DNA from: Methanoculleus bourgensis MS2
GTDB taxonomy: Archaea; Halobacteriota; Methanomicrobia; Methanomicrobiales; Methanoculleaceae
Assembly: GCF_000304355.2 (NCBI RefSeq)
Contig: NC_018227.2
Coordinates: 1,178,001 to 1,242,000 of the forward strand
DNA: 64,000 bases
Reading direction: 5' to 3'
The notes under the pieces were generated by a model. It searched no databases. It was given only the letters and a program-made list of their open reading frames with translations, and was not told the DNA's origin. Positions 27,377-31,704 of this stretch are shown here, one piece after another; positions within the stretch are counted from its first letter, which is position 1; every line of letters begins with the position of its first letter. The position numbers and the translations under genes were made by a program.

Positions 27377-27604
27377 GTGGTGAAGGTTACCATCGACAGG
27401 CCGGGATGCATCAGCTGTGAATCCTGCTGGACGCTCTGCCCTGATGTCTTCGAACAGAATCCCGAGGATGAGTTCAGCGAGATCATGGAGCAGTACCGGG
27501 TCAACGACAACCCTGCGGAGGGCGAGGTGCCCGAAGACCTTGCCGACTGCGTATGGGAGGCTGCCGACTCGTGCCCGGTGACGGTCATTATCGTGGAGGA
27601 TTAA
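27377..27604 (+). CDS. single-cluster [4Fe-4S] ferredoxin, copy 1
   Basis: A 75-residue ferredoxin starting at GTG after a strong GGAGGTG site. One CxxCxxCxxxCP motif (residues about 11-22) binds a [4Fe-4S] cluster; a later Cys in DSCPVTVI and one in the middle could form the disulfide or bind as in thermophile-type single-cluster ferredoxins. A very similar gene is at 31226-31447. Both are directly followed by a copy of the same structured RNA candidate. Confidence 0.9.
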   Translation: MVKVTIDRPGCISCESCWTLCPDVFEQNPEDEFSEIMEQYRVNDNPAEGEVPEDLADCVWEAADSCPVTVIIVED

Positions 27605-27687: not shown

Positions 27688-27700
27688 AATTATATATATT
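27688..27700 (+). promoter_or_regulatory. TATA box of structured RNA copy 1
   Basis: AATTATATATATT, centred about 26 bases before the 5' strand of the closing helix at 27720. It therefore predicts transcription starting at the helix itself. Confidence 0.6.
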
Positions 27701-27718
27701 ATTGGAGCTATGGGGCTC

Positions 27719-27870
27719 CTGCCTGAGAGAGGGATCAACCACGAGGCGCATCAACATGATGCAGCGGGTCCACAGACCAAGGCGGTGAAGGTCTGCGGAC
27801 AAAAAAGACACTGCACCATGGGCCGGAATGTGCCCGGGCCTGAAACCCTGCTCTCGGGCATCCCTGTTTT
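27719..27870 (+). ncRNA. candidate structured RNA, copy 1
   Basis: A ~150-nt RNA candidate. The closing helix TGCCTGAGAG (27720-27729) pairs with CTCTCGGGCA (27851-27860) over ten pairs with one G-U. Inside, CAT (27755-27757) pairs with ATG (27818-27820), TGCAG (27760-27764) with CTGCA (27811-27815), and GTCCACAGACC (27768-27778) with GGTCTGCGGAC (27790-27800; one A-C mismatch). The loop is AAGGCGGTGAA and an A-rich internal bulge lies at 27801-27810. TTTT follows at 27867. Bases 27750-27830 are identical in copy 2. It has its own TATA box. I know no named RNA family that fits. Confidence 0.65.
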
Positions 27871-29168: not shown

Positions 29169-29571
29169 CATGGATACCTGAATAATCGCTGCATTCCTCA
29201 TCGGGGCAGTAATCGCGGCCGGTGCTGTCTTCCTGGTGACCAGCACCGCCGCGCCGTCCCGGGTGAGCTCGGCCATCCTCGCCGGGGTGCCCGACGTCGG
29301 CTGCGGGGCGCCCTCGTTCCAGGCGGTGCTCAGTTACTGAGGCCTTGCCTCCTTCGAGACGGACCTCCGCGCCCACCTCAATACGACGCCCGTGCATGGG
29401 ACCTATCCCCGGGACATGGTCCGCGTCGCAACGTCGCTTGGGCTTGAGGCGGAGTGGAAGGATAACCTCATCACAGCCGATCTCGAGGCCTCGCTCCGTG
29501 ACGGCGTCCCGGTCAATTGTCGACGCCCAGCGCATGAAGGAGCCCGATAAGGCCTGGACCACAGGTCACTA
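29169..29571 (+). pseudogene. C39-type peptidase pseudogene, 5' part
   Basis: The frame encodes a signal peptide (IIAAFLIGAVIAAGAVFLV), then the catalytic-Cys region VGCGAPSFQAVLSY and a GTYPRDMVRVATSLGLEAEW segment typical of bacteriocin-processing-type papain-like C39 enzymes. Damage: TGA at codon 4, a second TGA after the LSY, and a one-base insertion near 29518 after VPV. The gene then stops at HY where an 822-bp element begins. The rest of the gene resumes at 30394. Confidence 0.8.
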
Positions 29572-31014: not shown

Positions 31015-31225
31015 TCATGTTTGGGAGGGCAAGCAATATACCTTGCCGATGTGCAGGTCGTGATCGGGCTCCCCGGGCGAGCCTTCTCCCTGCAGGGGAC
31101 GGGCGTGCTGCTTCCCGGTTGCGGAGAACGGCCCCCTCCCCCGAAGGAAACGATAACGGCCGCCTGCTTCCGTCACCTGTAACATGGAAGAGTACCCTTC
31201 CCGGGACCGAAATGGCGGTGGATCG

Positions 31226-31447
31226 GTGGTGAAGGTTACCATCGACAGATCGGGATGCATCAGTTGCGAATCCTGCTGGACGCTCTGCCCGGGCATCTTC
31301 GAACAGAACCCTGAGGATGCGTTCAGCGAGATCACGGAGCGGTATCGGGTCAACGATAACCCTGCCGAGGACGGGGAAGACCTCGCCGACTGCGCCGTGG
31401 AAGCTGCCGACTCATGCCCGGTGACGGTCATCTTTGTGGAGGGCTGA
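31226..31447 (+). CDS. single-cluster [4Fe-4S] ferredoxin, copy 2
   Basis: A 73-residue protein starting at GTG, nearly the same as copy 1: identical VKVTID start, CISCESCWTLCP motif and RVNDNPAE segment; two residues are missing near the EGEVPED loop. It probably carries electrons at low potential for an unknown partner. It is followed at 31553 by RNA copy 2. Confidence 0.9.
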   Translation: MVKVTIDRSGCISCESCWTLCPGIFEQNPEDAFSEITERYRVNDNPAEDGEDLADCAVEAADSCPVTVIFVEG

Positions 31448-31523
31448 TCCGATTACGGCGGATCCGAGGTGCCGATTGGATGTACGGGCCAGGGATAATG
31501 GTCATTCCTATGATATAATAAAA

Positions 31524-31533
31524 TTTTTATACT
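31524..31533 (+). promoter_or_regulatory. TATA box of structured RNA copy 2
   Basis: TTTTTATACT, about 26 bases before the closing helix, the same spacing as in copy 1 although the sequence around it has diverged. Confidence 0.6.
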
Positions 31534-31552
31534 ATTGAAGCTATGGGGGAAA

Positions 31553-31704
31553 CTGCCTGAGAGTGGGATCACCCAAGGGGTGTATCAACATGATGCAGCG
31601 GGTCCACAGACCAAGGCGGTGAAGGTCTGCGGACAAAAAAGACACTGCACCATGGGCCGGAATGCGCCCGGGATCGGAACCTGTCTCTCGGGCATACCTG
31701 TTTT
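31553..31704 (+). ncRNA. candidate structured RNA, copy 2
   Basis: The same structure as copy 1: TGCCTGAGAG (31554-31563) pairs with CTCTCGGGCA (31685-31694). The identical core is 31584-31664 and TTTT is at 31701. Between core and helix strands the sequence differs in many places, while both helix strands are unchanged. Nothing downstream on this strand looks like a coding partner, which argues for an independent RNA rather than a leader. Confidence 0.65.

Follow-up and report, generated by a model that had tools for sequence, protein, structure and literature searches.

To our knowledge, archaea have few large structured RNAs that lack known relatives, and a mechanism has been established for only a small number of archaeal non-coding RNAs. 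Among the described systems with which such an RNA can be compared are the CsrB/RsmZ-type RNAs, bacterial RNAs that titrate a protein by offering short GGA loops to CsrA, and the small RNAs sRNA154 and sRNA162 of Methanosarcina mazei, which are said to bind target mRNAs in trans. Here we analyzed a 64,000-nucleotide stretch of the genome of Methanoculleus bourgensis MS2 (referred to as the window), in which two near-identical genes almost certainly encode a folded non-coding RNA of a previously unlisted family, judging from sequence comparison. As a works-like comparison only, this family resembles CsrB/RsmZ in carrying several copies of one recognition hairpin per RNA, in a number that varies between lineages. 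It differs in that the Methanoculleus RNA has one module only, the loops of the methanogen modules follow the consensus ACGGY and lack a conserved GGA motif, and the module, at ∼76 nt, contains an internal loop and probably a pseudoknot. With sRNA154 and sRNA162 it would share an independent intergenic gene, an archaeal promoter of its own, and a comparable length, whereas those RNAs are described as acting on mRNAs and the methanogen module is repeated and probably pseudoknotted. The architecture of the SAM-I type riboswitch, a hairpin bent at an internal loop with its apical loop paired to a linker, may be similar; here, in contrast, there is no cis-regulated gene and no Rfam match, the modules occur in arrays, and their 1 x 8 internal loop does not show the kink-turn pattern.

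Each window copy specifies a rod-like RNA of 151 nt, has a TATA box to itself, and is located on the plus strand of a 2.79-Mb, single-contig genome. The initial annotation had reported two segments of ∼150 nt sharing 81 bases; we found that positions 27720-27870 (copy 1) and 31554-31704 (copy 2) are identical at 136 of 151 positions, and that the 81 bases form a single unbroken run (27750-27830 = 31584-31664). The repeat around the RNA copies reaches 159 nt at 89% identity and is part of a larger duplicated unit, which also holds a 4Fe-4S ferredoxin gene that is 85-87% alike between units. The 10-base strands of the closing helix (P1 here), TGCCTGAGAG and CTCTCGGGCA, are, as had been described, the same in the two copies, and their separation is 121 nt; P1 extends over 27720-27860 in copy 1 (5' strand 27720-27729, 3' strand 27851-27860) and over 31554-31694 in copy 2. 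A TATA-like sequence ∼26 nt 5' of the helix and a TTTT just after it, both noted earlier, are present in the two copies (TATA box of copy 1 at 27689-27703 and TATA region of copy 2 at 31520-31537, plus strand, both matched in the genus alignment; TTTT of copy 1 at 27867-27870). Within P1 of copy 1, stem A pairs CATGATGCAG (27755-27764) with CTGCACCATG (27811-27820), and stem B pairs GTCCACAGACC (27768-27778) with GGTCTGCGGAC (27790-27800), both stems being supported by covariation. Stem B is capped by an 11-nt apical loop (27779-27789), and the A-rich stretch AAAAAAGACA at 27801-27810 forms the 3' side of the asymmetric internal loop. The three nested inner helices, the 11-base loop, and the A-rich bulge had thus been drawn correctly, and the full structure goes beyond them to about five stacked helical segments. 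Both copies are predicted to fold better than shuffled sequences (z of -3.9 for copy 1 and -2.9 for copy 2). Between the two RNA copies, at 29190-29570, a cysteine-peptidase-like gene (of the FQAVLSYWGL type in relatives, e.g., L024 and L073) is apparently broken, with an in-frame TGA at a conserved W and a later frame change.

A blastn search with copy 1 gave clear homologues in about two-thirds of the genomes of the genus. A covariance model, R1, which matches both window copies (G000:C1:1205720-1205870, E value of 1.9e-33; G000:C1:1209554-1209704, E value of 2.6e-33), found a complete RNA in 28 of 35 Methanoculleus genomes, in most of them at a single, syntenic locus. The test for compensating changes proposed in the initial annotation was run on a MAFFT alignment of 26 homologues, in which nested helices form a rod and an A/T-rich TATA region can be followed together with a palindrome close to it. 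In this alignment, sequence changes respect the helices: we counted 38 double-change cells versus 13.9 in shuffled controls, and 95.7% of the cells are paired versus at most 44% when the partners are slid. Clean C-G/U-A and A-U/G-C exchanges occur at pairs 30/125 and 31/124 and at P1 pair 7/149, the seventh pair of P1, where a double change from A-U to G-C is found in 9 of the 26 sequences. Weak matches of the covariance model on the minus strand were put down to the self-complementarity of the rod. Exact 17- to 18-mers of the loop region that recur elsewhere in Methanoculleus genomes were taken as chance, since those inspected lie mostly inside one conserved protein-coding gene.

Six of the 35 genomes have neither the RNA nor an adjacent ferredoxin gene, and in a seventh (G023, L075:5974-6022) a 49-nt 3' remnant of the RNA directly follows an intact ferredoxin gene, as if the promoter and the 5' part had been deleted or the region misassembled. 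The RNA is thus not essential everywhere in the genus.

The element occurs twice in the window and in tandem in the related genus g19, and could therefore also be read as a DNA-level repeat, e.g., a nonautonomous mobile element, instead of an RNA gene. We give this reading, which was already disfavored, a next to negligible probability, given that the element usually occurs once per genome in a syntenic position within the genus and shows strand-specific covariation and a conserved promoter. A search of a plasmid collection gave no match, and a plasmid or mobile origin was rejected. A protein-coding explanation was also dropped for lack of a conserved reading frame, in line with the initial annotation, which had seen no conserved protein: the most open frame is intact in only 15 of the 26 homologues, whose lengths fall into all three modulo-3 classes.

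The novelty of the RNA depended on its not belonging to a listed family, and no Rfam 15 family matches it. At gathering score only tRNAs were found in the whole window, a permissive threshold gave no significant match for copy 1, and the loci of the other families yielded nothing except tRNAs. The initial annotation had also set the RNA apart from SRP, RNase P, C/D, and H/ACA RNAs. Archaeal SRP RNA (RF01857) and RNase P RNA (RF00373) resemble it only in being structured archaeal RNA genes, and their sole matches in the genome lie outside the RNA loci, at C1:2738747 and C1:2088895, respectively. No Rfam snoRNA match rose above chance, and the ATGATG seen in copy 1 has not been retained by g19 or by families 4 and 5. 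We found no description of such an RNA in the open-access literature, which is what our search covered.

To follow the RNA into other Methanomicrobiales, as had been proposed, we used covariance models, and homologues were found in the order. Beyond the genus, R1 matched three genomes in two other genera of the same family and G043 of another family; in these relatives the stem sequences differ greatly while the fold is kept. In genus g19, the one-module RNA gene is present in two or three copies, arranged in tandem at distances of 411-479 bp, and one further copy is unlinked; G099 has such an extra, unlinked copy. A second model, R2, gave weak matches in families 4 and 5, where scores are low because the hairpin is there a module repeated two or three times inside P1. 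Iterated covariance models defined this inner hairpin as a 76-nt module, composed of stem A, an asymmetric A-rich internal loop (1 x 8, near the apex), stem B, an apical loop that carries CGGY, and, on the 3' side, a linker that carries RCCG. Methanoculleus has one module per RNA gene, inside P1, while family 5 and most of family 4 have two or three, ∼100 nt apart inside a homologous P1; in family 5, the majority of RNA-bearing genomes have exactly three at one locus. Family 2 also has two or three modules with ∼100-nt spacing.

In families 4 and 5, P1 begins with UGCCUCAG and ends with CUGGGGCA or CACGGGGCA, with a TATA box upstream. It looks homologous to the P1 of Methanoculleus, having the same UGCC/GGCA end, the same U.G fifth pair, and a change from G-C to C-G at the sixth. 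In the additional loci of these families where P1 could be found, it encloses ∼325-340 nt, the predicted length of these RNAs; no such P1 was seen in the two family 2 genomes (genus g15) and at a few family 4 and 5 loci. In an alignment of 48 modules from families 1, 3, 4, and 5, the covariation score was 0.588 versus at most 0.155 with the partners slid, with 199 double-change cells versus 66 in shuffled controls, and both partners vary at 19 of the 21 pairs. The module model R3 scored modules at loci outside its training set with E values down to 4e-15 and found the module in 77 of 232 Methanomicrobiales genomes. Among 393 genomes sampled across the phylum, every match lay inside the order and none outside Methanomicrobiales.

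A second conserved intergenic element of ∼100 nt, GGTGGCATCAACAGGAGG ... GTTGGACACTAATACACCTG, was noticed in family 5 (L114:4570-4665; also L105, L106, L107, L112, and L115). It contains a GC-rich hairpin, lies ∼100-300 nt downstream of the modular RNA (>1 kb in L105), is absent from the window, and could represent a further unlisted RNA, which might be encoded by the opposite strand.

The multi-module forms bear on the likeness to bacterial 6S RNA (RF00013), under which the RNA, as a rod, would act as a decoy that binds RNA polymerase or one of the general transcription factors. The Methanoculleus form does recall 6S RNA as one long, interrupted, rod-like stem with an internal, asymmetric bubble. 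We nevertheless regard the decoy as very improbable: the large symmetric central bubble of 6S RNA is absent, the bubble present lies near the apical end, the RNAs of other families carry several modules and are not one rod, and there is no Rfam 6S match.

The conserved letters of the module are concentrated in the internal loop, the apical loop, and the linker (the A-rich strand is kept as GACARAGA in other families), while the stems are variable, a pattern that suggests tertiary contacts or recognition of a ligand or protein. Probably, the apical loop bends back at the internal loop to form a pseudoknot with the linker. In copy 1, the proposed strands are CGGU (27783-27786) and the linker GCCG (27822-27825), the latter being RCCG in most modules and showing a C-G/U-A exchange. 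Of the 47 training modules that could be scored, 39 form all four CGGY/RCCG pairs; outside the training loci, with the linker register left free for the best fit, the four pairs form in 44 of 50 modules. Families 4 and 5 have CGGC/GCCG and Methanoculleus mostly has CGGU/ACCG, in some cases with G.U. Replacement of C-G by U-A is seen in two lineages, Methanoculleus and, separately, one family 4 module (G079, L181; CGGU/ACCG). Pairing fails in G008/L010, G017/L072, and G026/L074, and only three pairs form in g19; owing to these exceptions, and since the covariance model itself favors common letters, we grade the pseudoknot as probable and not as proven. A kink-turn reading of the internal loop was dropped because the tandem G.A pattern is absent.

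Highly conserved loops and linker, variable stems, and a probable pseudoknot are typical of ligand-binding RNAs, and the conserved loops would also fit a small-molecule or an RNA-binding role. The module might then be a small-molecule aptamer in a free-standing sensor, with two or three in tandem in some families. We hold this to be quite improbable, given that no same-strand gene lies consistently downstream, the neighbors differ between families, and Rfam riboswitches give no match. For similar reasons, a cis-regulatory riboswitch was rejected: the downstream gene in Methanoculleus is on the opposite strand, and the neighborhoods change from family to family.

The unequal conservation of the two window copies can be compared with that of their orthologues. 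The outer RNA parts of copy 1 are closest to the single copy of G021 (93% and 90%), and those of copy 2 are closest to G001 (97% and 98%), whereas the 81-nt core is 100% identical between the copies and only 96% and 93% identical to the G021 and G001 orthologues. Since the core is identical even though the outer parts resemble different orthologues, the best fit would be two paralogous lines whose core was recently homogenized by gene conversion. A module homogenized despite differing outer parts would be expected of a functional core.

The initial annotation had taken the RNA to be independent, with a putative regulatory or effector role. Its independence gains support from the TATA box that precedes it in each of the families examined and from neighbors that differ between families. 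The full-length family 4 and 5 RNAs that were read have a TATA-like box ahead of P1, with the same TATA start as the Methanoculleus RNAs. The gene order in Methanoculleus and g19 is ferredoxin, RNA, and an opposite-strand M42 peptidase, and in many of these genomes a small membrane-protein gene (DUF421-like by eye) lies in between. In the window, a 75-amino-acid, single-cluster 4Fe-4S ferredoxin (27377-27604, plus strand; PF13459/PF13370) ends ∼115 nt upstream of copy 1, and its paralogue in the duplicated unit, likewise assigned with Pfam, lies upstream of copy 2 (31208-31447, plus strand). Ferredoxin is a conserved neighbor in Methanoculleus and g19 only, and no adjacent protein gene is common to the RNA loci across families; the few cross-family neighbor matches are low-complexity frames or ATPase genes some kilobases away. 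In G043 (L071), the RNA precedes an operon for an A-type ATP synthase, and in family 5 genus g7 (L107/L114) it has ATPase-like genes at a distance of a few kilobases; the ATPase neighborhood is possibly an ancestral location of the RNA.

A 3' untranslated region structure or processing signal of the ferredoxin mRNA would account for the position of the RNA ∼70-120 nt after the ferredoxin gene in Methanoculleus and g19, and for the joint loss of both in six genomes. Ferredoxin is present in all 28 Methanoculleus genomes with a complete RNA; exactly the six RNA-less ones lack it, while in other families ferredoxin is unlinked to the RNA. We consider such a cis element highly improbable, since the TATA box and the palindrome separate ferredoxin from the RNA, the two are on different contigs in G036, G043, G096, and G162, no ferredoxin match was found in several family 5 genomes with the RNA, the extra copy of G099 is unlinked, and G035 has ferredoxin without the RNA. 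A functional link between RNA and ferredoxin was therefore not adopted, and their linkage, confined to Methanoculleus and g19, was treated as synteny. With neighbors that vary and ferredoxin unlinked elsewhere, the conserved element appears to be the RNA with its putative promoter and not a cis element of a gene.

Just upstream of the RNA TATA box, many Methanoculleus genomes have a 7-1-7 palindrome, GAAYAAYNRTTATTC, the spacing of which we take to be reminiscent of Fur-family operators. This genus consensus is matched exactly upstream of the RNA in G001 and G003, appears as the palindrome-like element GGATAATGGTCATTC at 31493-31507 upstream of the copy 2 TATA region, and is degenerate in copy 1. 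A palindrome regulon was not adopted, as there are few sites genome-wide and no convincing shared promoters. The palindrome does suggest regulated transcription, which, together with an intergenic gene having its own putative promoter, would suit a base-pairing small RNA whose exposed A-rich strand or apical loop binds target mRNAs in trans. Archaeal intergenic small RNAs with mRNA targets are documented (PMC5867862), which also counts for this reading. Base pairing with mRNAs still appears unlikely to us, as the unpaired segments are short and mostly conserved across families, the loop is probably already paired internally, and an antisense RNA would not usually be a rigid rod carrying two or three modules that resemble each other.

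The explanation that we prefer, tentatively and at somewhat less than even confidence, is a stable, trans-acting, TATA-driven structured RNA whose modules bind a protein, so that the RNA serves as a multivalent scaffold or a titrating RNA. Each copy would be an independent gene for such an RNA, and each folded module would offer one putative protein-binding site. The RNA would then act as a multivalent ribonucleoprotein scaffold or would titrate its partner, with the number of sites set by the modules per RNA and by the gene copies. The module is suggested as the binding site by its conserved unpaired segments with variable stems, its constant spacing, the varying number of modules and genes, and the homogenization of the core. 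The broader proposal of an order-wide, undescribed archaeal ribonucleoprotein RNA, with a repeatable pseudoknotted module and a dedicated protein partner and unique to Methanomicrobiales, is one that we hold as possible, with less assurance still. If true, it would define a modular class of non-coding RNA with one module in Methanoculleus and usually three in family 5. Because the unit is compact, at 76 nt, and can be made and tested in isolation, the question of binding is directly testable, and both one-module and multi-module forms exist in nature, in an RNA family conserved across several families of a major order of methanogens.
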